This document shows positions 10,703 to 52,950 of a stretch of 64,000 nucleotides of DNA, in pieces. The translations under genes were made by a program, and so were the position numbers. The stretch covers positions 27,274,949 to 27,338,948 of the forward strand of contig NC_064773.1 in assembly GCF_011397635.1 (NCBI RefSeq), in the 5' to 3' direction. The DNA comes from Epinephelus fuscoguttatus (taxonomy: Eukaryota; Chordata; Actinopteri; Perciformes; Serranidae). The notes below the pieces were generated by a model. That model was not told where the DNA came from. It did not search any database and saw only the letters and a program-made list of their open reading frames with translations. How positions within the stretch are numbered: the stretch's first letter is position 1; every line of letters begins with the position of its first letter.

Positions 10703-16708
<6,006 letters not shown>

Positions 16709-27669: not shown

Positions 27670-28230
27670 TCAAAAAGGCGCTGACAGCTTCCTGTGTGTG
27701 TTTGTGCATGTGTGTGAGGAGTGCCACGAATCCATCAGCACAGAAGAAGCAGACATTGACAGCGTCCTCTGAGCTGGTAGGGACGGGGCACTCCTCATTG
27801 TTTCCTCTGGTGGATGAAGAGGGTGGTGTCCTGGGTCAGGGTGGAGGGGCGTCCTGGACTCACTCGAGAGCTGAGAGTGGTTCAGTGATCTACTGTGGTG
27901 TTGGGTCTTCCTGGGATGACTGACGTCCACTCTCAGCTGCTCCAGGAGTGCCAAAACCTCAGAGGAGTCTTGTCCTATAAAACAGAAACACAAATAATGA
28001 ACATTTTTGAACTTGGCTATACATGGAACCATATTAAGAAGGCTCCTGTAATAAAAAATAATTCACATATGTAAAGTTAACGTTATCTGAGCACAACTTT
28101 GTGTCAGTATGGTACTTTGAAGTCTTAGTGAGGGGATTACTTACTGAGCCCACTGATCAAAGGCGCCCATCGTCCTGTAGTCATCTGTCCTTTCATCTGG
28201 TCCTGTTTTGCTCTTCCACGTTGCTGCTTC
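27670..28230 (-). CDS. Possible 3' exons of an unrecognised gene
   Basis: Two candidate exons on the minus strand: 28230-28145 (acceptor CCACACAG, donor GTAAGTAA) and 27977-27670 (acceptor TTCTGTTTTATAG). Joined, they keep an open frame of about 130 codons ending at 27670. It includes GRWAPLISGLRQDSSEVLAL, then LEQLRVDVSHPRK and a His/Ser/Pro-rich tail. An AATAAA follows 262 bp later (27403-27408). No family is recognised. The unit lies downstream of the acidic-repeat gene on the same strand, separated by a LINE, so it could be its 3' end or a separate gene. A second frame through the first exon is also open, which lowers confidence. Fragments of the same region recur inverted at 48163-48828. 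Confidence 0.35.
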
Positions 28231-28489
28231 CTGTGTGGGGGGGTCTGTTACACCTGAATATAACTGAGTAAAGAGACTTGGAGACTTTTCTTTATGTTAG
28301 TAAATATTACCTTCCCTCTGTTCATTACATCCACCTACACCTAACTGAAAACACATGACAGTAAAACAGAGTGAGCACAATAAACAACGTGGTATTATTA
28401 TACTGGTCGGTGGAATACACAGTTGTAGGAGACTTGTCTTAATGTTGTCATTAAGTATTAACTTACTTTTGCCTGGTATAACCACTTAT

Positions 28490-29830
28490 ACTTTACAAGA
28501 TGTCCAAACAGGCCGCAAGTGGAGGGGCCAGGTAGAGGTGGACAATGCTATCAGAAGGCTGAAGCATAAAGAGGACGTAGGAAGAGTGCAGGAAGGCCAG
28601 GCTGGGTTTGGCTGAGGAGAACCAGTCAAGCTCTGGTCCAAAGCCTCGAGGAAGGAGAGGAAGACCATGTTTATGGAGGAAGTATCACGGGTGGAGCGGG
28701 AGCGCTACCTCATCAAAGCCATGTCCCAGGGCAAACAGGGGGCATGGACTCGGTGGGAGGACACCATCCACAGAGCCATGATCTGGAGGGACATCTGGCA
28801 AACCTAACAGGCACAGCTCAGCTTCATGGTGAGGGCAGCGTATGATGCCCCTCCCTGCCCACAAAACCTGTCGCAGTAGTTTGGGGGTGAAGTGAAGTGT
28901 CCCCTGTGCATCAAAAACAACGCACGCCTCTAGCACGTCCTGTCATCATGTGAAGTGGCACTGGCACAGTGGTGCTTGAAATGGCGGCATGACCAGGTCC
29001 TGTATACACTGGTGGAGCTCCTGGAGAAACACAGAGTGGCTGTAAACACTTTTTCTAGCAAACGGACACCAGGCGTTTCCTTTGTCTGACCAGGAGAGAG
29101 CCAGCAGAGGCCAGTGGCAGGCCATTCAAAATCACTGCTGACCCTTGGAAAAGACTGGAAGATGCGTGCAGACCTCGGCAAGCAGCTGGTCTTCCCCGAC
29201 AAGATCATGCAGACAACCCTGAGACCAGATGTTGTGATGTGGTCCACAGCTGCCAAGCACGTACTCATCATCAAGCTGACCATGCCCAGGGAGGAGGGAA
29301 TAACAACGGCGCATGAGCTGAAGCGGCTCAAGTACTCTGAGCTGGCTGCAGAGTGCAGAGAGGCAGGCTGGGAGGCATCCATCCACCCAGTGGAAGTTGG
29401 GTGCAGGGGCTTTGTGGGCAGGTTGGTTAGCCAGCTTCTCCAGGCTGCTGGAACAACAGGCACATGTCTGCAGAGGGCCATCAAGGAGCTGGCAGAGGAG
29501 GCTGAGAGAGCTAGCTACTGGCTGTGGCTACAGAGGAGGGACACCGTATGGGACCAGACACCCCAGTGGCAGGGAGACGTCCCTAGACAGCCACTGGCCC
29601 CCCACCCAGAGATGTACTGGCTAGGGGCGAAACAGCTGAAAACCCTGCAGCTGACCCCAAGTGCACTGGAGGTGGTGCGACAGGCAAGAAGCCGGGCAGG
29701 TTAATACCAGCGACGACCTGTACGCTCCATCAAGTAAAGACTTAACAGTATAGCATGTATTAACTGCACTAACCTTACCACTAGTGCATGCATATGAAAA
29801 TATTGAATGTAAATAAAAAGCCCTGGTGCA
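28490..29830 (+). mobile_element. RLE-type non-LTR retrotransposon 3' end, decayed
   Basis: Coding remnants read on the plus strand. From about 28620 a segment such as RYLIKAMSQGKQGAWTRWED is followed by a C-x2-C-x8-H-x4-C knuckle (CPLC...HVLSSC) at about 28900-28955. Both are interrupted by stops. An open frame of 196 codons at 29114-29704 then corresponds to the restriction-like endonuclease and tail of R2/NeSL/Hero-like elements. It carries RPDVVMWST, then LIIKLTMP, VEVGCRGF and AEEAERASYWLW. From memory of the family, the LTMP block usually has a Glu where this copy has Lys54, so the nuclease is probably dead. AATAAA near 29812 may be its own 3' signal. It ends close to the stop of the convergent acidic-repeat gene. 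Confidence 0.7.
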
Positions 29831-29926: not shown

Positions 29927-32900
29927 TCAGTCTTCATCCGAGTCGCTGTCACTGGGGTACCTAGGGTATCTAGGACTTGGCCAGTGTCTTCTGAGTGCGG
30001 GGAAGCTGAGGCCTGAAGTGGAGGGTCTTGTCTCTTCGTCGCTGTCCTCACTGGTTTTCCTCTGCCTCTTCATACCTACCTGTGGTGTGTCGCTGTCTTC
30101 CCTGCTCCTCTTGGTGGATGAGCTGAGGGTGGAGGCTGGGGAAGCAGAGTCTTCAGACCTGACAGAGACTGGGGGCAGATCTTCGGGACGTTCCACTGGC
30201 TGCACAGGAAGCTCCAGGGAAGGAACACCAGGGAGGGGGGGGTCCTCTTCATCTTCTGCGTCCTCTTCGCCATCTTCGTCATCTTCGGTCACGTCTTCTG
30301 ATGTCAGGGAGCCGTATCCAGAATCTTCACTCGTCAGGTCAGACCAGACTACATCATCGTCGGGGTCTTCTTCCTCCGCCTCAAAGTCAGACGCATTTTC
30401 ATCATCGCTGTCGATCCAGGGAATGCATTCATTTGCACCTACCTGAACCTGAACCTCTCCGTCAACCACAACAATGATCCCGTCCATACTTAGCCCGTCC
30501 TCATCATCAGAGAACAGTGGGGGAATGAAGTCAAGTGCACCTACCTGAACCTCTCCGTCATCCTCGTAATGAATCTCGTCCTCACTTACCTCATCCTCAT
30601 CATCAGAGGAGGGTAGGGGAATGAAGTCAAGTGCACCTACCTGAACCTCTCTGTCATCCTCGACACCTATCTCGTCCTCACTTACCTCATCCTCATCATC
30701 AGAGAAGGGTAGGGGAATGAAGTCATCTGCACCTACCTGAACCTCTACGTTATCCTCAAAATCAATCTCGTCCTCACTTACCTCATCCTCATCATCAGAG
30801 AAGGGTAGGGGAATGAAGTCAAGTGCACCTACCTGAACCTCGATGTCATCCTCAACACCAAACTCGTCCTCACTTACCTCGTCCTCGTCATCAGAGTAGA
30901 GTGTGGGAATTAACTCACCTGCACTTACCTCATCCTCATCAGAGGAGATGTCGATGGGGCGTTGACCTTCATCGTCGTCCAGGTTCCTGATGACTTCCAT
31001 CCTCTGGCCATCTGGTGTGGGTTGCTTGATGGTGTAGAAAGGATGACCTGAGGAGGAAAGATATTCAAATTGTAAAAATTTATCATTCAATCTCTCATTA
31101 AATATTTAGGATTAAATTAGCAAAAATCAGAATTTAAATTGGAAAAACCTACAACATACCAATATACTAACTACAACTGCACTACACCTGTAACAAAGCC
31201 ATCAATACACAATGGGCTACACCTTTTAAAAGTAATATCAAATATTGTACAGTTCAGCCTCTTAGTTTGTACAGATGAGGGATGAGACAATCAATTCATG
31301 CAGCATAATATCACAAAACATAAAACTGCAGAAACAATGTGTCAATGGGCTAATGAACCGACTGCTGAGTAAAGACACTTATTTTGCACCAAACTGTCAG
31401 GACTCTAAATGGTTTCCAACAAACACCATATATTAATCCAAAAATACCTCAGTAAACTCTTTGCAGACCGAACCAGTAGTTTATAACTCATTATTCTCAT
31501 AGTTTGCACATCACAGCGCGTGTAGCAGATGGTGTCATCCTGGACACATAACGCGCACACGGAGGCACTAGTTACATAACAAATTCTCTGTTGTCCCTCC
31601 AAAACAAAATACCTCACTAACAAGCAAAGCGCATTTTAATGTCAAATGTTAAACAGAGGTTTATTTAAGGTACGAGCTATTTTCACCCTGCTGCAAATAT
31701 CAACATATTTGTACCGGGGTACAATTAGAAGTGGATGCTATTCGTACCCTGGATTATAGTGATGTGTGCTGTTTATACCCATCTTATACCCATCTTTATA
31801 CCCATCATACACATCTGTACCCTCATTTCGTACAACTAAACTATTATCTGCTCAACCTCAACCTTCAGGACCTAGGTTAACTACATAGCTAACTATCCTA
31901 CCATTACAATGCAACCATGCCAAGTGTCTTTTCTTTAAGCAGATTTATGGTTGTTCGTAGACTCTACGCACGTCGCCCACGCCGTTGTGAGCATTTCTAT
32001 TTCTGCGGTGGTTTGTCTGTGTCACTCTGCAGTTACACCTCCAAAACACTGGGCGGCGGGGGTTTCAGTGAAGCGCTGTAAAGTTTAGTTGATCAAAACA
32101 CACCCAAAACACGCACTAACCCTAACCCATACACAAATCAGCTTCAGAATAGCTCGCAGCATTCACAGACAAACGGGAAAACACATTTCCCCACAAATAT
32201 AACATGCTGTAACCGAGGGTTTACAGATGTCACCTATACTATGTAAAACTATAAAATAACAATATGGAGGCTGCAGTTTCATACGGGGACCACTTTATTC
32301 CGTCTTCCATTCCAACCGTAAACTCCACTGCTACCACACCGTGTAACAACACTTCCGCTCAGCCTTCAAAGTAAGAGCTCAAGGCATGTACTGTGGTGAC
32401 AGCCTATAACAGGAACTTAAAATCACTCTAAGAGGCAAGTCCATAAAAATAGGTTACAATGCTAACGTTATTAGCACAAACCTATTGCATTCTACATTGT
32501 ATAAATTAGCCTGGCTATTAGCAATCTTTCCCTCTTCTCATATAAAACCAGGGACAACGGCAACATTTAACAAAGGTAACGGTACACAATTTGGCTCCAT
32601 TACAACTCACAAGATTCACGGACAAAACAACTGTCACACTAAACACATACAAATACAACATGCTAACGTTATTAGCACAAGCCTATGGCATTTTACATTG
32701 TATAAATTAGCCTAGGTACTAGCGTTCTTTCCCTCTTCTCACATAAAGGCAGGGACAACGGCAACATTTAACAAAGGTAACGGCACACAATCTGCCTCCA
32801 TTACAACTCACAAGATTCACCGACAAAACAGCTTTTCCAAACAAATACAGCATGCTAACGTTATTAGCACAAGCCTATGGCATTTTACATTGTATAAATT

Positions 32901-33822
32901 AGCCTAGCGACGACCGGAGATTTCCTGCACTCATATGAAGCCAGGATAAATTACACACAAGACTTAAAATGCTATTGTAGTGGAGGCTTTACTGTCTTCA
33001 CAATTTATAGTTTCTTATTTGTAAAATAAACGGTGTCAGTGTACAGAAACAGACAGGAGGTCTGCCTCTGTTAGGTTTTTTGTACATGCAAAGTTTGTTG
33101 TCACACCTCATACAGGGGTGAAAATAGCCCAGCTGAGAGGCCAAGGACATTTATAGCCTACTGGGGTGCAAATAGTCACTCATTTATGGTAATGTGATAC
33201 TTAAGGAACAATAAGGACCTTTCTAATCAGCTCCAGATACAATATGTCAAGCTTTAACAGTCAAAACAAACCAACTCAGAGGCCCGTGCCCTGGTTTTGA
33301 TTCCACCTGTGCGTCTCTGCGTCTTGACGTTCACTCATAATAGTACGTCTCCATGGCGACAACTAAAGGCATTTTTAGCAATATTTGAAATTGGATCCAG
33401 TCGCCATATTTGTTTTAGTACATCCGATCACAGCTTGTCACATTTTGGGAGATTTGATACCCTCAAACAAAAATAACAGTGTTCACTATAAATCACTACA
33501 TGAAGTGTTAACACATCGCGCACCTGTCCCGGTAGATTTAACACATTCTGTCCATCAACAATCAGTTTACACCAGAAATCGTGAATGAGTGTCTATTTGA
33601 ATCAAATCTGCAGTTTTCCAACAGGCCTAATAACATGGTGTGAACTGTCCACCTCTACTCTCACAAAGTTACACGATTTCTACAGTGATAACGCTTTTAA
33701 CAATTTAAGAGGTCGAATCAACAGTAAAATACTAAAATAAATATAAAAGTTGTCTTACCTGCGCGGTGGGTGTCCGGCTCACGCAGGTGCTCCTCCCAGG
33801 TCGGTGGTCTGCGGGGGTCCAT
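29927..33822 (-). CDS. Unrecognised highly acidic tandem-repeat protein, two exons
   Basis: I do not recognise this gene. Exon 1 (33822-33759) starts MDPRRPPTWEEHLREPDTHR; exon 2 (31047-29927) joins in phase through a good acceptor (TTTCCTCCTCAG) to GHPFYTIKQPTPDGQR. The predicted product is 394 aa. Residues of about 50-210 are roughly five units of 32 aa built on SDDEDEVSEDEI...EVQVGALDFIPLP. Longer Asp/Glu/Ser runs follow, then a Ser/Pro/Lys/Arg segment (STKRSREDSDTP) and a tail of SDSDSDED. There is no signal peptide or membrane segment; composition suggests a nuclear, disordered, possibly histone- or basic-protein-binding role, which is inference only. A TATA box lies about 172 bp upstream of the start. 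Each repeat unit carries splice-donor-like sequence, so some copies may be partly intronic. It may be a transposon-derived or lineage-specific gene. Confidence 0.6.
30430..30945 (-). repeat. In-frame tandem repeat, about 96 bp unit, five copies
   Basis: Lies within exon 2 of the acidic-repeat gene. The units encode SDDEDEVSEDEI, a variable six-residue spacer, EVQVG and a FIPLP block. Every complete unit contains GAGGTAAGTGAGG and CAGGTAGGTGCA on the coding strand, both close to the vertebrate 5' splice-site consensus. Unit length is a multiple of three, so copy-number change keeps the frame. Confidence 0.85.
31048..33758 (-). other. Intron of the acidic-repeat gene
   Basis: Bounded by a donor (CGCAG then GTAAGAC) and a matching acceptor. 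It has no other coding signal. The part at 31970-32985 belongs to a locally duplicated repeat family that also occurs at 40020-40745. Confidence 0.5.
32461..32905. repeat. Tandem repeat, about 200 bp unit, two to three copies
   Basis: The phrase GCTAACGTTATTAGCACAA followed by CATTGTATAAATTAGCCT recurs at about 32461, 32661 and 32853, with the intervening sequence (AGGGACAACGGCAACATTTA and so on) also shared. Related units occur at 40218-40630, so the array was duplicated together with its flank. Confidence 0.8.
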
Positions 33823-33993
33823 TTCGGGCTCTTCGGTTTATCACAAACCTTTTGAACTTTTCAATAATCTGAAGTTTGAAAAGTGTTTTCCAAAAGATGT
33901 GCTTTCTGCTTCAGTACTCAAAGAGTTATCTTTGCACAAGGTGGCTCTGGTCCAAGTCCAAGTGTAAAGGGAGAGATCTGAACGGTGTGGAGG

Positions 33994-34000
33994 CCTTATA
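33994..34000 (-). promoter_or_regulatory. TATA box upstream of the acidic-repeat gene
   Basis: The minus strand reads CATATAAGGCC here. That would place a transcription start near 33965 and a 5' UTR of about 145 nt before the ATG at 33822. The pairing of TATA box, ATG and intact splice sites supports an active or recently active promoter. Confidence 0.5.
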
Positions 34001-34848
34001 TGCCTGACCTCGGCCGGGTTTCCATGACATTTGATGATGAAAGCGCTTTGGTGTCAGAAAGATGGACATTTGAATTCATTTTTCATATTTGTTCATTTAT
34101 TCATTTCATTTATGGGCTACTTTCACTGAGTGTTTTTTATTTTTCATCTCTCTCTGTGATTATAGTTTAACTGCCATGTCCGTGTAATTACTGCTGCATA
34201 AATAAATAAAACATAAAAATATATATAATGAAATAACACATTATAAATCAAAGCAGAATCACCCTTAACATTACAATGCAACAAGGCCATAGCCATGGAG
34301 ACAGCACTGGGAGGGACCAAATCTGTCAGATCTCCCCTTGTGTTGACACGAAGCTCCCAAAAACATTTCACAATTCAGAAACTCATTTCCTTTTAGCCAT
34401 TTTGTGTATTCTTTATGATTTATCAGAATCAAGTACAGCTGTTGTGATAAAGTCTGAGAATGCAGGTGGACTTCTCCATTCAGAACGGACTTTCCTTTGG
34501 TTAACTGGCATGTTTCTTCACCTTTCCCTGTGCACCTCAATGTCCAACCAGTATGTTATATGCTTCTCCTCTAATTCTGACAATGACAGAGTTTTTCCTG
34601 ATGATGGACATTACTCCCTGCAGAAGTTACAGACTCACTTAGCATGTTTAAACTTTGACTAATCACACCTCTGTTTGATTAACACTGTTATTGATAAGTA
34701 AGGTCAACATACCTGACTACATGTACACATATTATTGTCACACACAGTCACACGGTCAGCAGAGTGTTATGAGTGTTAGCGTGCTAATGCTATTGATAGT
34801 AGCATCTGTGTTAATAGGATGATTAGTTTGATTATTATTGTTTTAAGT

Positions 34849-35436: not shown

Positions 35437-35817
35437 CACTGCTCAAAAAAAATTAAGGGAATACTTAAATCACACATCAGATCTTGATGAACGAATTATT
35501 CAAGTTGAAAATCTTTACTGATGTACAGTGTATAATTTGTTAAGAACAAAATGACATAACAACAGTCAGTGGAAATGAAAGTCATCAACCCACTGAGAGC
35601 AGGATTCAAAATCAGACCAAAAATCAAAGTAAAAAATTGAAATCACAGCCTGATCCAGCCTTTATGAAACTGATAAACTATACATTTTTGGAATCGTTAG
35701 AACACAAGGAATATGAAAACTAATGTTTCCATTTTTTTCAAACTCTCCATGGTGGCCATTTTGAATTTCAAAATGGCTAATGTTTATAACAGCATTTTGC
35801 ACAACGTGCATTGTGGG

Positions 35818-35990
35818 TCAGGATTCAGCTGGTGAGGGCTGGCTCGGTGCTCCATTGCAGGTGCGGAGTTGAGACTGAGCAATGTCAGCCAGTATGCTCT
35901 GGATCTTCTCCAGCAGCATATCGCTGTGGTAAACCACCTCCTCCAGACAGGCTGCTGTCTCATGGTTCTCCTCCTCCAGCTGCTGCAGAC
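35818..35990 (-). pseudogene. Partial duplicate of med21 terminal exon
   Basis: Reads [20 protein letters not shown], then [20 protein letters not shown] and a PSQPSPAES tail with the same stop as med21. It is the last exon only. The splice acceptor and first five codons (AASLR) are deleted, so it cannot be spliced like the original. Flanking intron sequence at about 36300-36420 matches 50430-50530, in the same orientation. Substitutions R to C, R to H and A to I show relaxed constraint. Confidence 0.9.
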
Positions 35991-38885: not shown

Positions 38886-40019
38886 CAGGTTAAAGCAGGG
38901 CTCCAGACTAATTTGTTTTAGTATAGGAGCACTGTAGCACTGTAAAAAATTTAGGGGCACAAGCAGAAAATGTAGGGGTACACCTTAAATCGTCCTGCAA
39001 CACAGTTATTCACATTTTTGGCCATTTTAACTGTATCATAAACTATATGTAGTCTACTGTATATTAACATTTGACTGTTTTAATTATTGAAGTGTTTAAC
39101 ATCACAGAGACTGGTAGTCAGTCGGATGTGAGGACTCTAAAAATAACATCTGTACAGATGTGAAGCCCTGATTATATCTGACTGATCTTTAATGAAAGCT
39201 GTTGTCTTGTATTTTTTTTCCTCTGAAAATATTAACCTTATAGTCAGACACAATTTATTTAGCCTATGTAGTTGAGGGGACAGGTCTCCTCTGCAGCAGC
39301 AAACTGATATGATGCTGACTTACATGAGAATTCATGTGCAATGGAGACTGAATCATGAACATCAATTACAAAATTGCTTGTAAAGTATTTTAATAAATTA
39401 ATCTAGCACAATTATAACAATTGGAGACTGAGAACAAACTGATATAGCAGTTCATTTGGATTCAGCCCAAATGTCCAGACTTCACTGCACTTGCAGGCTT
39501 GCAGACTTTGCAGGCATGTTCCCGGGAAGTCTGGGAGTGCTGAGGGCTGTCCAAATCCACAATTCATCCAGGCGACAAGGGGCCTCAAGTGGACTTTCTG
39601 CAAACTTCCAGAGAGTCCGCTTGAGGTGCAGATTTAAGCAGACTTCACTGATATAATAACCTACAGTAATTGCAATACGGACGTGATGTGGGTTTTTGAA
39701 CTGCCAAAAAAAATACAACCTTATGAATAGTTATTGATAGTTAGGTCTATTAAAATGCTACTTGTATTATTATTATTGTATTGTAATATTGTAATATTAA
39801 ACCACGTCATGATACAGGATATAAGTGTTGACTGTATAGAGGGACTGAAAATGCATTTCATTTTTGTGCCTGATCAGGCTGTGCAGTGAAATAGGCTTAA
39901 AAAGAATTGTCCAAAAAAAAAAAAAAAAAAAAAGAAGGTTTTTAATGTCAGTAATGCCCAATTTATTGAGTTATAGTCCTTATTTACAACCATTTCTGTT
40001 TTTGAACGTGTAGCCACAC

Positions 40020-40745
40020 ATCACCCACGCCGTTGTGAGCCGTGGTGTGCGTGCTGTAAAGTTTTGTTGATTCAAAACACACAAAAAACACACATTAAGT
40101 ATGGCTTAACAGAGACAATTTCAAACACAAGTACACAAGTTGGCTTCACTATAACTCACAGTATTCACAGGCAAACACTTGTCTTTATCTGGACACATTT
40201 TAGCCACAAATACAACATGCTAATGTTATTAGCACAGGCCTATGGCATTTTACATTGTATAAATTAGCCTAGCAACTGTCAATCTTTTCCTCTTCACATG
40301 TTAAAGCAGGGACAACAGCAACATTTTACAAAAGTAATAGTACATAATTTTGCTCCATTCCAACTCAAAAGGTCCACTGACAAAACAACTGTCTTGTACT
40401 AAACAATTTTCCCAAACAAATGTAACATTCTAATGTTATTAGCAGGAGCCTATGGCATTTTACATTGTATAAATTAGCCTAGCAGCTGGCAATCTTTTCC
40501 TCTTCTCATATTAAACCAGGGACAAAGGCAACATTTAACAAAGGTAATGGTACATACTTCAGCTCTGTTATAATTCACAAGGTTCACTGACAAAACAACT
40601 GCCTTATACACGTTTGTGTAAATTAGCCTAGCGACAAGCAGAGAATTCCTCTGTTCATATGACGCCAGGATAAATCCTGGACTATAAATCTCTAAAGGAT
40701 AAATTACACACAAGACTTAAAATGCTATTGCTACTTTTGTGGAGG
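40020..40745. repeat. Second copy of the 31.97-32.99 kb repeat block
   Basis: Same orientation and order as in the acidic-gene intron. It begins at CACGCCGTTGTGAGC, continues through the ATTAGCCTAGC units and ends at AATTACACACAAGACTTAAA with the following GTGGAGGCTTTA. Clearly diverged from the first copy. Confidence 0.8.
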
Positions 40746-42149
40746 CTTTATTGTCTATGTTGCCAAAATTTCTTAGAAAACCCAGATGGATAACCACCTG
40801 CACTTGGGCTCTTCCCACATTGTAAGGATGTAATTTGCAGAATTTAATTCAGTGATAGTAATTGGTTCCTCCAATTTCTCAGCAACAGCTTGTTCAATAG
40901 AAGGAATATCCAAACCATCAAAAAAAACTGTCAAAATTGAGAGGGGCAGTTAGGGCTGGTTCAGGCTTGTTTTGGACCAGCCCCTAGTTAGGCTGACATA
41001 GGCCTAGTCTGCCAGGGGACCTTCTATAATACATCACCTATAATACACTTAGCCCCTTCTCTCCTTCTCTCTCTCTCTCCTTTGCTAACATTATTGATTA
41101 TTGTCACATACATATAGTATCATATATTAAAGCAACACTTACCTTATGGAAATTTTACACTTCTCTTTGTTTAGGTTAAAATGCTATTAATAAGCTGATG
41201 GCACACTAAAATGTAAGTGAATTCCACCAGAAATAAAAACTCGGAATTATACCATTCTCATATGGTTCTAAGAAACTCCAACCAATCACTGCATTCGGTC
41301 CGAATGCAACGACTGGAGTTTTCTCCTGTCCTGTCTGTCTTCCCCACGTGAGGCCTCTGACTGACATAACTGCTTGCATAACATCCAAAATGTGAACCTG
41401 CTCTCATATGTGAAGAGAACAGGGCACCAGTGGCAGACCTACCAATCTTGGTGTTCTCTGGTGAATGCCAATCAAGCTGCACGGTGCTGGGCTGTGAACA
41501 CAGGTCCCACTACAGGACGTTGGGCCCTTATGCCACCCTCATGGAGTCTGTTTTGGTCAGAATCATGCACACCTGTAGCCTGCTGGAGGTCATTTTGTAG
41601 GGCTCTGGCAATGCTCCTCCTGTTCCTCCTCATGCAAAGGAGCAGACAGCGGTCCTTGCTGCTGGGTTGATGCCGTTCTACGGCCCTGTCCAGCTCTCCT
41701 TGTGTAATGGCTGGTCTCCTGGTTTCTCCACCATGCTCTTGAGTGGAGAAAATCTTCCTGTGACGGATGTGCCATCCTGGAGGAGCTGGACTACCTGTGC
41801 AACCAGATTGGACTGCAGGTACCGCCATGCTCTCAGTAGTGACAAGGACACTAGCAGAACACAAAATTAAAGAAGAAATCGGGAAGGATAAGAAGATAGC
41901 AACTATCTGTGGCCACCACATGAAAACCATTCTCTTTGTGGATGTTGCCTTGCTTTTGCCTCTTCATTGCACCTGTTGTCACTTTCATTTGCACCAAAGC
42001 AAATTACTTCCTATATGGACAGATTGATATCCCTGAAGTTTCACTGACTTGCTTAAGTGTTGCTTCGTTTGTTTTGAGCAGTGTATTTACCAAAGTCCTT
42101 TAACAAAGAAGGCCTACAACAGGCTTTAGCGTAGAACTTTATTGCAGTG

Positions 42150-42967: not shown

Positions 42968-44990
42968 TCACATGTCACAACAGTGTAGTGAGCAAAGGTG
43001 CCACCTAGTGACAATTAGATCAGCAGTCATTTGTTCAGTAGGACAATATTCCAAGATTACCTTTCCATTATTTACAGTTACCCTTATGAAGTGGTACTTA
43101 ATATCAATGTGCTTGCACCGTTGCCTGTTAACAGGGTTTCTGGCCAGTGCTATAGTACCTTGGTTGTCAAGTTTTGGTTCACATGGGGTCTCTCTGGACC
43201 TGCAGTGCAGCATTTCAAACCTCTCCAATATTTTAGTTACATATTTTTTCTGTGACATTTTGATTTCACCTTCTGCTTGGTCAAAATCTCTGCCCAGAAA
43301 ATGTCTCAACTTTCCCAAATCTTTCATTCTGAACCTTCAGGAAGCATCCTTTTGACACTTTTCAGTACGTCCTTATTACTGGCTGCTATGATCAGATTGT
43401 CAACCCATATTAGCAAGATTACCTTTTCGTCGTGTTTCTCTCTTTTTTTTTTTTTTTTCCTAAAGATTTTTTTTGGGGGGCTTTTCAACCTTTAATGGAT
43501 AGGACAGACAAGTGTGAAGCGGGGAGAGAGGGAGTGACATGCAGCAAAGGGCCACAGGCTGGAGTTGAACCTGGGCTGCTGCGGTAACAGCCTTGTACAT
43601 GGGGCACCCGCTCTACCACTAACCCACCGGCGACCCCGTTGTGTTTCTCTTTTGTATACACACAGTGGTCTGCAGGATTCTGTACAAAACTGTTTTCACA
43701 CAGATATGTTTGTAACAAAGCATTCCAGTTTCCCCCTGACTGCTTTAAGCCATAGAGAGACTTTGGCAGCTTACACACTAGTTTTTCACCTGCCTCTGAC
43801 TTTTTCTCATAGCCTTCTGGCTGCTCTATATAGAGTTCACAATCAACTGGTGCGTGCAAATAGGGTGTCTTAACGTCCATTTGGTGTAAGACTAGGTTCT
43901 CCTGCACTGCCTTTTGCATGACCACTCTACTTGTCATGTCAGCTGTGGGTGAGAATGTCTCCTCATAGTCAGTTCCTGGTTTTGGCTGTCACCTTTTGCT
44001 ACAGTTCTCGCCTTGTATTTATCTGATCCATCAATGTCACTTTTGAGTGCGAAGACCCATCTGCCCCCCACTGCCTGTTTACCTGGTGGCAAACGGGTGA
44101 GGCTGAAGGTCTCGTTCTCCTCCAGTGATTGCATCTCCTCATTCATGGCATTTTTCCAGTGCCTTGACTTGGTCGATGCTATGGCGTCCTGGTAAGTTTG
44201 AAGAATGTCGCACACTGCTCTGTAACATGAGTCCACACATGTTTGCAGTTTGTCCGCATCCTCAGTCTCAAATTCCTGTAGACCAGGTGGTTTTCTCTTG
44301 GTTCTTGGTGGGTTCCTTCTGATCACAGTCTCAGCGGCTTTACCTGGCTGTGTGTGTTCAGTCTGTTCAGGTAGAATATCAGACACAGCACTTTGAATAC
44401 CCTGACCAGGTAAATTTTCCACATTTTCATTAACAACATTTTCTTCATCACCATCTTTGGTTGTCTTGGCTGCGAATTTCACCAACCTGTGTTTTTGAAC
44501 TTTCTCTGTATCTGGGTAATACACTACATAAGCTGGGCTATTTTTGTCATAGCCAATGAAAACACCTTCTTCACAGTGTGTTTTTCTTGTTTGTAGGCAA
44601 AACACATCAAACCAAATTTCTGGAGCTTGGATATGTTTGGTTCCTTGCCTGTGAATAGCTCGTATGGCATTTTCTTTGTGCGCCTACTGTAGCACCTGTT
44701 TCTCACATAAGCTGCTGTTTGCATGGCGTAGTACCACAGTATATTTGTGCTCCTCCACGACCTTTCTGACATCATCTTGCCACCCCCCCCCCACCCCCGC
44801 TTTTCTTGCAAAGGGATTCTTGGTGTGTATTATTTTTGCAGTTACCACACCACACACGCTAGCGTGTGTCTTAGTGTGGCCTCGACCTTGCCTTACATGT
44901 GTTTTCATCACATTATCTGTAGACTCTGCTGTGTTTATTTTTTCCGCTTCTTCATCGACCCATAGTCTTCTTTTAAAGTCTGTGAATTAG
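42968..44990 (-). mobile_element. Ty1/copia retrotransposon fragment, inactive
   Basis: The minus strand encodes, in order, an integrase C-terminal part (TAAYVRNRC...MPYELFTGKEP, 44811-44524), a linker and the start of the reverse transcriptase (WKNAMNEEMQSLEENETF...GGRWVFALK). The palm follows (VLHQMDVKTPYLHA...KSLYGLKQS, 43937-43640), then the catalytic box as WVDNLIIAAS near 43400 and an RNase H end (KHIDIKYHFIR...CPTEQMTADL). The usual WVDD is WVDN, and there are frame breaks. No LTRs, gag or protease were seen. A SINE interrupts the palm coding sequence. Confidence 0.85.
43442..43640 (-). mobile_element. tRNA-derived SINE inserted in the Copia fragment
   Basis: The head on the minus strand has an A box (TTAGTGGTAGAG) and a B-box-like GGTTCAACTCC; the tail ends in ATTAAAGG and T/A-rich sequence. 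It is flanked by the 10-bp duplication GTGTTTCTCT (43432-43441 and 43641-43650). The Copia frame resumes on the other side. Same family as the copy at 24240-24423. Confidence 0.85.
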
Positions 44991-48150: not shown

Positions 48151-48828
48151 GACAAGTCAGTCCCCTCACTAAGACTTCAAAGTACTATAGTAACGTACTC
48201 AGATAACGTTAACTTTACATATGTGAATTGTTTTTTATGACAGGAGCCTTCTTAATATCGTTCCATGTATAGTTGAGTTCAAAAGTGTTCATTACATGTG
48301 TTTCTGTTTTATAGCACAAGACTCCCCTGAGGTTTTGGCACTCCTGGAGCAGCTGAGAGTGGACGTCAGTTATCCCATTATTTTACATTTATTCGGTATA
48401 CTTGAACAAAGACAGTGTTCACTGCATCATTTTAGATTGTATTCCCACAAAGCTTTAAGTTAACAGACCTCATGATTTTCATCTCAGTTGTTCTCAGACC
48501 ACGCCATGCTGTTGCCATCTCTTCCTGTCATGAGGACAGTCATCAGTGTCCTGACTGGCTCTTCCTCCATCAAACACCAACTATAATCTTTTCTCAAATT
48601 AAGATCTAGGCCTAACGACATAAGAATTAGACTTTACCTGGAAAGTAGAATTAAAATATCTTGCCATCCTATGACCGCTGCTGTCTAAAATGATAGTAAG
48701 CAAATGTAATCATAATCAAAACAAACCTAGACTAACTGCCTTCATTATTACAACTGGTTGTAATATTACAGCATACTGCAGTTCTGCATGTGGTTTGTCC
48801 AAGTGGTGTTGCGGTACCCCAACAGAAG

Positions 48829-49770
48829 CTGTTGTTCAACTGCTGTGGGTCAGTGTCTAACACTGTTGTTGGAGCTGTAATGTTGTTTTTGTTAGTTTTT
48901 TATTCTTATCTAAACACAAGGTAAATATATATATAAAAAGTCAGTACAAATGTAGTCAAGAAATACACATTTTCACTCAACGTTAAATATTTTGCTTTTT
49001 GTCAGTTAAAAAAAGATACTAAACATTCAAATCTGCTTGGACTCCGATAAACGCCGCTTGCAGCTTTAATTGAACGTGAAACTGCTCTAATACTGTTTTT
49101 TCCCATTTAAATTACCGTGTCTGTTTGTTAGGTAGAGACCTCTGGATAACTTGCTTGCAGTCAAAAAAATAAATAAATAACCCTCAATATCTGGATCAGA
49201 AAAAAGACACAGTACAAAGACACATTAGCAGGGGCTGGGCGAGAGCACCGTCTGTGATGTGCCAAACAGCTTAGGAGAAACACTGATTGCTAAAGCCCTA
49301 TAAATCTAACACATGGTTCTATTTATAAGGTTTAACAATTTTGAAATACCTACTAATTTCACCTCCAAGCTCAAATCTTCCAGGCCTACACTTTCCTCAC
49401 TCTCAGCAGCCTGTGTGGTGGTGAGGGAGGGTCCAGCATCCGTGCTGTCACCTCCATCACTGCTGTTTGAGCATGGCTGAGCGTATTTCAGATATAAATT
49501 TAGTTATTTTACAAATAAATATGTGAGGGGAACGTAATTAGTGAGCACTAAGTGCCGTAATAGATAAACATGAAAACAATTTTGTCAGAAAGGAAATCCA
49601 TCAATAAAGATACAAATAGTTTAAACAAATGAAGTCTCCAGTGTGTTTGTTCAAGCTTTATTTCAACAGAGAAAGATGTCAGAGTTACAGTGAGTTGAGT
49701 GGGTTTATTTACTTATCTGAAGAGTGTTGAGGTTTTTCAGTAAAGACACTCCAAAAATGAGAATTTAAAC
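48829..49770. other. No gene recognised
   Basis: AT-rich spacer between the right duplication arm and the med21 3' end, with no exon signals or recognisable repeat. Confidence 0.5.
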
Positions 49771-49779: not shown

Positions 49780-50211
49780 CAGACATATCTACAAAAAAAC
49801 GATGTATCAACATACAACACAGACATAAAACATAAAAAATCATAACAGGGTGACCCCTCACACATTCAGACCAGAGTCGTTTTGACCCCACGGCTGTATT
49901 TCTTAAAAGCTTTTTGTATCAGCAAAAAGCTCAGTGTAGAAAACAGTGTGTATGTGATGACATCTTCAGCTGCCATCTAGTTTCACACATTTTTCAGTGT
50001 CTCTGCCTTGAGACCAGCCGCTGCTGTGTGACAGTAACACTCCAGCTGATGTTTCACTGACTGTATAGCACCTCACATTTCCTTTACAAACACATTCAGC
50101 AACTTCTGATGCTTCGAGGCTTCCAGCTGATGTCTGAGAGCAAAACTAAAAGGTCATCATGAGTGGGACATGACTGAAAATTGTCCAGAGCTGCATTATG
50201 TCCATTGTGGG

Positions 50212-52950
50212 TCAGGATTCAGCTGGTGAGGGCTGGCTCGGTGCTCCGTTGCGGGTGCGGAGTTGAGACTGAGCAATGTCAGCCAGCGCGCTCTGGATCT
50301 TCTCCAGCAGCATATCCCCGCGGTAAACCACCTCCTCCAGACGGGCTGCTGCCTCATGGTTCTCCTCCTCCAGCTGCCGCAGACTGGCCGCCTGACAAGA
50401 GGTCACAGCCAATCAGATTCAATGTAAGGATACATGGATAAACAAGAAAACATAACTGGCTTAAAGCATGGTTAACCCAAAGAAGAAAAAAAGCCTCCTA
50501 AAAATGTTTTAGAGGCAGTATCTCATTTCACAACATGAAAATGAAACTCTAGGGCCAGATACGTGACAGCCCCAGGCACAAGTCATTGTCTTTTACATTG
50601 GCCAAACCAATACATGCCCTGTCAAGGTATATTGCAAAACCATTAGATCTATATTGGCTTTACATGTTAGTTATTGGTTTGAACAAAAATTGTGATTTAT
50701 TTATTTATTTTTATGTCTCCATTAAAGAGGATGAGATATTACAGTTTCATGGTTGTAAGGCTGTTGAATTATGGCATTAAAATCTTATAGGCCGTAAGAC
50801 ATTTAAACATTTTGACATGTCACATTAGGAAGAGCACAAACATACATCATAAAATAAATGATTGCTGAATTCTGTTTAGCTGCTTCAGTTTAAGGGTTGT
50901 ATTGAACATGCTGGCTCACTGTCACACTACTCTCTTTACAGTTTTGGTTTAGTTTCTGGATATAGTTTTAGTAATTTATGTTCTATTTAATTTTATTTTC
51001 TACTTCTTCGAGTCTCCTTGTGTTGTTTGTTTGTGACTTGGCATCAATTTCCTACAGGGATTATCAAAGTACTCTTTTTTTGTTCAGTTGACAGAAACAA
51101 AATAAAACTTTGTTCCAACAATCACTGACTCTGGTTTGGTTGAAATAAACCTTTACTTCATTCAGTCAGTTGTTTAGTGGACACTAATTGACAGTGCATA
51201 ACTGCCCAACTGGTTACACTGCAGCCTGGTTTTCTGCTGCCAGCTGCAGACCTCCCACTCAGTACTGGACCAGTTTCAAAAATGATTGTTCCTATTACTC
51301 ACTTAGAGTCTGTGCATTTTAGCTGCTGAAGACTCTAGTTGGTCTAACTATCATTAAGTTCAAGAGTTCAAGAAATCAAGAGTTTCATCAAAAATATCCT
51401 TCTAGTTTCAGCAACGCAATCAACACAGAAATAGCAGCAACCCTTCCTCTCTATTTCCACTTATGAGAAGATAATGAATTTACTTAAAAGGCAATTCATA
51501 AAAACTCACCGATCCTGAAAAAGGTAAGAAATACTCTTCTGTTAAGATGTTGGATCTGAATTTCAAAGGTAAATGCAGTACATTTTCAGAATGTGCACTG
51601 ATCTGAGTCTCTTTAAATGATCAAACCTCAAACTATATGTAGTATGTAACTGATAAACGAGTGTGCATGTGTCAAAAATTAAAAAATGTTTATTCAAGAG
51701 TTTATTAGCAGCCTCTAGGCTTCTCACGGTTAATAACCAGAGGAGCGGCCTGAAAACTGACTGCAATAATTTGGTTATTTGTTTTATACCCATGAGCAGA
51801 CATAATTTTCTTTGTCAGAGTCTTGAGCTGTCAGTGTACACAGCAGCTGAACAAGCATTCACCTGGCTCCCTCTGCTGACCGGTAGCTAGAAGTACTAAG
51901 TGGGATTTTGGATTTGTTTATCATGGAATCTGCATGTCTCAAAAGTACTTATGAAGGTGCCAACCTGCAGAGCTGCTGTGGACTCCTCACTGGGCAGAGA
52001 GTCTATTAATACATCCACATCTTTGGCTGTTCTGGCGATCAGGGCTGCAAACAGCTGGGCATACTCTGAAGAGATTAAAAAAAATGTCATCCTCATGTTG
52101 AACAAATCATGTTTCTCCATCCTGCAAGTCATTAGCAAACAGATAAGACTGGTAACATTGATGAGAGAGAGATATATGTAGGAAGAAGACAGTGTGGAAT
52201 AAAAATGTGTTGCAAATGGTGTCAGTGACTGGTCAGTAACAGTTTGTTATGTGTTGTGGATTAGTCACATCTGGCAACACACGATCAATGTATTAATTAA
52301 TATGATCATTACTGGATTGGCACATCAATAATGTAAGCCAGGGAGTGATGAGAAGCGAGATCAGTAAGAGAGGAGTAAACAAAGGAGCAACAAAAGTAAA
52401 GTAACAAAGACATATAGATTACCTTCGGTTGGGTTTGCTGGCTGATCTCTGTTGATAGCTGTTTGGATGTTACTGAAGGAGGCAGGAGGCGCACATTGTT
52501 GCAGGACGCCGATTGCATTGCAAAACTGATCTGCAAGCTGGACATACAAAACATCGATTGGATTACACTTTCTTTCAAGCAGGGAGACATGAAAGCTGTC
52601 AGTCAGCCACTCGTTTGCGACTCAGCATTCTTAGTACCTAGACTTAATACTAAATATGAGTTACTTTGAGGTTCTAATGTGTTATCTCTACAATACTGTA
52701 GCAAATGTTTCTGTGTGAAATTTAACATGAAGCTAGACTTGTTCATAGTAACGTTTCAGGCCCCTGGTCGTTAGCTACACAGTGATATAGCTAGGTTGAC
52801 AAATAACTGAAAAAAGGGGTACTGCTTAGCAACCACCTTTACGTAGTATAACCAGTCAAAATACAGTGATTTGTCACTTTTTTTCGTCTAAAAACTCAGA
52901 TGCCTTACCGAATTGACAGCGTCTTGAAGCTGAGTTAGCCTGTCCGCCAT
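50212..52950 (-). CDS. med21: Mediator of RNA polymerase II transcription subunit 21, four exons, complete
   Basis: Med21 is a small helical subunit of the Mediator middle module; it pairs with Med7 and helps connect activators to RNA polymerase II in the nucleus. Exons on the minus strand: 52950-52909, 52537-52423, 52065-51965, 50391-50212. GT-AG junctions stay in frame and give 145 aa (human 144). The protein starts [20 protein letters not shown] and contains the conserved [20 protein letters not shown] and [15 protein letters not shown] blocks. The C-terminal half is a coiled coil ([20 protein letters not shown], then [17 protein letters not shown]) and the tail ends in PSPAES. The last exon and its flank have a second, partial copy at 35818-35990. 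The start codon lies 334 bp from the first ATG of the divergent fgfr1op2. Confidence 0.98.

Follow-up and report, generated by a model that had tools for sequence, protein, structure and literature searches.

The locus described here raises the question of whether a long, repetitive and strongly acidic reading frame lying among transposon remnants is part of a gene, and how its repeats came to be kept. The window, i.e. the whole stretch of 64,000 nucleotides from Epinephelus fuscoguttatus that was analysed, carries on its minus strand one copy of a dispersed gene family for acidic proteins. The earlier note had described a TATA box, an ATG, a donor and an acceptor joining in phase and 394 open codons, and all of these were found in place. 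The TATA element (TATAAGG, 33994-34000, read in the sequence) lies in a core promoter and 5' untranslated region (33823-34060) that is family-wide according to an alignment across 16 copies. In-silico splicing yields a first exon of 64 nt (MDPRRPPTWEEHLREPDTHRA plus one base, 33759-33822, ATG at 33822), an intron running from GTAAGA to CTCAG (31048-33758) and a second exon with an open frame (29927-31047, terminal TGA at 29929-29927). Donor CAG/GTAAGA and acceptor CCTCCTCAG/G join the exons in phase, and the product has 394 codons followed by TGA. Tandem Repeats Finder places an array of 96-bp (32-residue) acidic modules at 30447-30937 (5.1 copies), and the only stop in frame is the terminal one, which bears out the claim of a frame kept open across a 96-bp tandem array.

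A block of the intron, approximately 31668-33233, has little or no counterpart in the introns of many other copies and recurs in part at 40017-40756, so that the original intron was shorter. The block features internal tandem units and is found as an inverted copy in the intron of locus L016. The match at 40 kb consists of intron sequence only and was therefore not taken as a paralogous gene. Splicing of a candidate mini-intron of 67 nt in the basic module, from donor CAG/GTAAGT to CCACTTCAG/G, would shift the frame. Elsewhere, the window contains fragments of a Copia-type reverse transcriptase (Pfam RVT_2; 43485-44683, minus strand) and a hAT-like transposase fragment (Pfam PF14372; 46408-46926, plus strand). 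A kinase-like frame at 15273-15638 on the minus strand, probably a broken copy, has no relevant Pfam match and presumably corresponds to part of an NDR-type (STK38-like) kinase. A 193-bp repeat (35798-35990 and 50192-50384, 92% identity) reads like a coding end on the minus strand.

A search with exon 2 through the genome of the window (26 contigs, 1.047 Gb) gave at least 22 matching loci, spread over 13 contigs. Of these, 21 were examined, namely the window and 20 fetched loci, with C11:32885014 left out. Fifteen of these 21 retain an exon-2 frame of 200 codons or more; L010, L011, L013, L023, L028 and L029 do not. Eighteen of the 20 fetched loci, all but L011 and L029, have a match to the exon-1 sequence. 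The length of exon 1, measured in the window and 17 fetched copies (L023, with a broken exon 1, was left out), is 25, 28, 58, 64 or 70 nt and is 1 mod 3 in all 18. Two-exon models were built for 14 copies and 13 of them are free of internal stops, while the model for L026 has one stop, located in exon 1. Eleven of the 14 models use an in-frame acceptor above the score threshold; for L021, L022 and L025 the acceptor was placed by sequence match, and L020 was not modelled, its long frame not being continuous with exon 1. ATG, donor and acceptor are repeatedly present, and the copies also resemble one another, to varying extents, in the promoter, parts of the intron, exon 2 and a block downstream of it. 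The ATAA core of the TATA element occurs in 16 of 16 aligned promoters, the element reading TACATAAGG in L012 and L013; the promoter may have some likeness to the CRE- and X-box type.

A search with the promoter as query pointed at about ten further places, the last three being weak and confined to the intron. In four of the extra loci (L034-L037), no exon-2 frame of the family is present within 5 kb; L036 and L037 have an in-phase exon 1 and L035 an out-of-phase one, and a pattern search found none in L034. Long low-complexity arrays of DRQTDRQTWTDRHGD reside downstream of exon 1, at the place expected for exon 2, in L034 and L037. The family thus has what is expected of functional multi-copy genes, namely a gene structure and open frames that recur in several members. 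The earlier note had named multi-copy hits with stops in all copies as the outcome that would speak against a gene; the hits are indeed multi-copy, but with long frames in most loci and a single interrupted model. The window gene thus looks real on the sequence evidence, as one copy of a scattered, fast-changing acidic family.

The window copy alone could not show selection, and support comes from the other copies in the same genome. In the window, stops number 20 and 54 in the two alternative sense frames of exon 2, and the gene frame has only the terminal TGA. In Markov trials on the non-array part of exon 2 (20,000 per order), its 635 bases came out stop-free in a fraction of 0.0002 (order 1) or 0 (order 2), so that the frame is open far beyond chance expectation there. 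The antisense strand of the same exon is also open over 174 codons. Among the five array units of the window, dN/dS ranges from 0.24 to 1.11, and between copies it is 0.36-0.75, below 1 in each of 14 pairs chosen by the analyst. The proposal that the frame is kept by selection finds support between copies and no uniform backing among the array units. In 10 of the 14 pairs dN is greater than the divergence measured over the first 520 bases of the intron, so that either constraint on the protein is weak or that part of the intron is unusually conserved. Overall, the family frames appear to be under mild constraint.

The window protein has a net charge of -105 and a pI of 4.05. Parts that recur in the family are a brief N-terminal segment, stretches of acidic residues that contain hydrophobic-proline motifs (FIPLPFSDDEDE in the window), PVERPEDLPPVSPRSEDSAP, a basic module around KRSREDSDTPQVSVKRQRK and, at the C-terminus, an acidic segment; an EDSGYGS-like motif occurs in several family copies. 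The C-terminus is exactly SDSDED in nine of 15 open copies, with variants in L014 and L024; the proteins of L020, L021, L022 and L025 stop before this end. Different modules have been amplified: the acidic one in the window, the basic one in L014 and L024 and another acidic unit in L022 and L025. Two basic clusters (KRSREDSDTPQVGMKRQRK, 30056-30112, minus strand) recur across copies with a donor-like site between them, and by motif type we take them to be a candidate nuclear-import signal; a stricter bipartite import pattern has no match in the window protein. From composition and known motif types, the protein is likewise presumed to be nuclear, disordered and phosphorylated and to have a degron-like motif. 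A SUMO-binding reading was set aside, as there is a single strict motif match (PIDISSD).

Searches of the window protein against Pfam, NCBIfam and PDB sequences gave no match past the cut-off. The best Pfam match is Coleoptericin (E 0.013, 16.1 bits vs a cut-off of 25) and the best PDB match has an E of 0.29, with none in NCBIfam; four other family members gave a single Pfam match below the cut-off (E 0.72). No relatives outside this genome were confirmed in collections of viral contigs or of contigs from non-eukaryotic genomes. The lone match to the DNA pattern there (L001) is an unrelated frame with a chance GDEVSEDEL, and a 30-base exact pattern of the intron repeat has no match in either collection. 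The literature search, mostly outside subscription journals, found nothing recognisable as the acidic family. Members may figure as "uncharacterised protein" entries among annotated fish proteins.

A feature absent from the earlier note concerns the nucleotides beneath the repeats. A PWM scan with human splice-site frequencies detected twelve donor-like 9-mers with a score of at least 5 between 30074 and 30931 on the minus strand. Their first bases, converted from positions in the coding sequence, are 30931, 30921, 30880, 30835, 30784, 30739, 30688, 30643, 30592, 30547, 30445 and 30082. In 1,999 codon shuffles of the window coding sequence the mean was 3.2 and the maximum 9; without the repeated units six sites remain vs 1.2 in the shuffles, and 14 copies together contain 97 vs 25.9 expected. 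Over 13 copies, the density of donor-like sites per kb is 8.45 in the sense strand of exon 2 and 0.27 in its antisense strand, and in the sense strand 0.05 in the intron, 0.43 upstream, 1.15 in the 600 nt past the stop and 0.69 in the next 1.9 kb. These sites coincide with a codon lock: each of the 68 [QE]V[SG] tripeptides found in 14 copies has the codons [CG]AG-GTA-[AG]GT, with GTA, the least used Val codon elsewhere in these genes, accounting for only 22 of 188 Val residues there. The motif serine is AGT in 47 of 47 cases vs 36 of 549 elsewhere, and [QE]V before other residues uses GTA in only six of 41. The tripeptide test omits modules with an altered site (QAS in L026, QVR in L027, GLS in window unit 5), and since copies and array units are related, neither donor nor codon counts are independent. 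Within that limit, consensus donors are maintained beyond the needs of the protein.

Downstream of the gene, a block at 27693-28498 on the minus strand, 1.4-2.2 kb past the stop, aligns with other copies and contains recurrent splice-like sites, among them an acceptor-like TTTTATAG before 27974. An acceptor-like site before GAC[AC] is present in 13 of 18 loci scanned, the pattern having been written after the alignment had been inspected. The block is not conserved as coding sequence: a conserved coding tail was considered and dropped because a poly-C tract varies out of frame, and predicted downstream tails differ between copies. Neither AATAAA nor ATTAAA occurs in exon 2 or the first 538 nt past the stop in 13 copies, and three copies lack both anywhere in the fetched sequence. 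Together, the lack of these signals nearby and the recurrent downstream acceptor-like sites favor exon 2 as a putative internal exon with alternative donors. In the window, a GATAAA that may act as a weak poly(A) signal is located 38 nt past the stop.

The surroundings of the stop vary. In L012, L016, L020 and L027 a tandem array with units of about 110-135 bp and a copy number differing by locus follows directly. From 29927-30000 into the 3' sequence, and likewise in L014, L016, L017 and L026, an alternative frame is open beyond the stop, reading WETFVSGRT...SLCVW in some copies. A LINE-like remnant (28500-29740, plus strand) contains a 204-codon frame at 29090-29704 that has no Pfam match and that we take to resemble the end of a restriction-like-endonuclease LINE. 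Much of this remnant is located at the same place in L010 (81%), indicating an insertion before the window copy and L010 split. The plus strand at 48161-48845 carries, in inverted orientation, a piece of the downstream block of the family and of the sequence up to 26835.

What might the donor-like sites do? To us there is an even chance that the copies are members of a dispersed host gene family whose exon-2 donors bind U1 snRNP and serve as alternative donors, and we read the codon lock as selection for U1 binding, most likely in alternative 5' splicing. The TATA promoter would drive a tiny first exon that is spliced to the long exon 2, and the latter would encode a very acidic, probably disordered and nuclear protein built from two amplifiable kinds of module, one acidic and one basic and import-like. 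The in-frame 5' splice sites inside the modules would bind U1 snRNP and, as alternative donors, be joined to downstream, largely non-coding exons. The choice of donor would then set how many modules the protein contains and whether it includes the second basic cluster, and the unspliced form would yield the full frame. SDDEDE and SEDE sites may be phosphorylated and basic nuclear partners may be bound. Gene structure, mild constraint, module amplification and nucleotide-fixed, putative 5' splice sites in the modules can all be read from the DNA. Somewhat more tentatively, each amplified protein module may bring along its own U1-binding 5' splice site, such that the protein unit and the RNA-processing unit would coincide.

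It is conceivable, if rather unlikely, that the donor sites bind U1 without being spliced and thereby block premature polyadenylation or retain the transcript in the nucleus. A minority of the sites is in phase 1 instead of 0, so one downstream frame cannot serve them all, a matter irrelevant to binding alone, and exon 2 of the window lacks a strong internal acceptor. There is precedent in the available parts of two reports, in which 5' splice-site motifs of papillomavirus late 3' regions and of terminal exons inhibit polyadenylation and favor nuclear retention (PMC3826338, PMC6199362). The same parts state that terminal-exon motifs lower protein output (PMC3826338, PMC6199362), which is at odds with a maintained open frame, and the recurrence of the downstream acceptor-like site also argues against binding alone.

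The earlier note had left the choice between a lineage-specific gene and the accessory ORF of a mobile element. That the gene is an accessory ORF or cargo of an element that spreads it would agree with the number of loci and contigs, with the long common non-coding flanks and with the introns kept in the copies, which indicate spread via DNA. We nevertheless regard this as improbable. No crisp ends, target-site duplication or own transposition enzyme were found within the stretch examined, which ends short of the unit's ends, and no common mobile-element enzyme was recognised among the frames listed. Flanking inverted repeats were dropped as element ends, the listed pairs being AT or T runs. 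The similarity of L016 and L019 extends for several kb on the upstream side of exon 1, more in keeping with duplication of a large block. Frames near L012 and L026, presumably receptor-like and phosphodiesterase-like, respectively, are unlike each other; neighbours thus differ between copies. As there are no clear ends in the stretch examined and no common transposase or reverse-transcriptase frame among those listed, and given the long flanks of L016 and L019, a putative lineage-specific gene fits better than an accessory ORF, and large-block duplication is the preferred, if putative, mode of family spread.

Relatedness of the copies bears on the lock itself, which might be unselected and stem from a common module ancestor together with exchange between copies by recombination or conversion. 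The copies are indeed all related, the arrays within a locus have been homogenised, and the basic module has many further codons that do not vary from copy to copy. Still, this reading is no less improbable than the one just discussed, since the lock extends over modules differing in sequence (EVSEDE, DEVSV, VQVGD, TPQVSVK and FEVSD) and the motif Val codon differs in none of 223 aligned between-copy pairs, as opposed to 66 of 427 for other Val and 530 of 2955 for other identical four-fold codons (V, A, G, P, T). Complete locking is seen for five of the 63 common tripeptides, namely QVS, QVG and EVS in eight flanking contexts each, SVK in two and CED in four. It is very hard to uphold that the open frame arose by chance from low-complexity acidic repeats or is in decay: the open antisense frame, array units with dN/dS near 1 and the loci without a long frame, the four later ones included, would suit it, but the stops in the other sense frames, the Markov trials, the exon-1 phase kept in every measured copy and dN/dS below 1 in every pair do not.

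Selection for alternative donor use, the explanation we favor for the lock, can be set beside known systems. Mammals possess multi-copy families of acidic, disordered germline proteins, GAGE and SPANX, which by description resemble the family in their many copies and short, fast-evolving acidic proteins and differ in being mammalian. Exitrons are coding sequences that double as introns. Detained introns, as far as described in the available part of PMC6199362, likewise keep a 5' splice site in the RNA to be spliced later or never; both they and exitrons usually involve one intron, whereas the fish exon contains an array of donors and no strong acceptor. In the papillomavirus late 3' region, according to the part of PMC3826338 at hand, 5' splice-site-like sequences bind U1, and the likeness lies in splice-donor sequences placed where they could bind U1 and affect 3'-end formation. 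Those sites reside in a viral 3' untranslated region, unlike the sites found here, which are in frame inside coding repeats and multiply with them. The codfish antifreeze glycoprotein genes are, by their description in the available text of PMC8622921, a comparably young, repeat-rich and lineage-specific fish family for a different protein.

The ingredients are thus known, namely orphan acidic families, alternative donors and U1 sites in exons; coding repeats with codon-locked arrays of putative donors are, on this evidence, a new combination. Amid transposon remnants lay an overlooked gene family that has its own promoter and many open copies and whose modules turn over rapidly. It would offer a natural case for studying how open reading frames tolerate or exploit U1 sites. 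Should the donor arrays be functional, expansion of a protein repeat would be tied directly to RNA processing: tandem duplication would add acidic or import-like sequence along with a new transcript ending or hold-back point, and repeat number would tune the length, location and output of the protein together.
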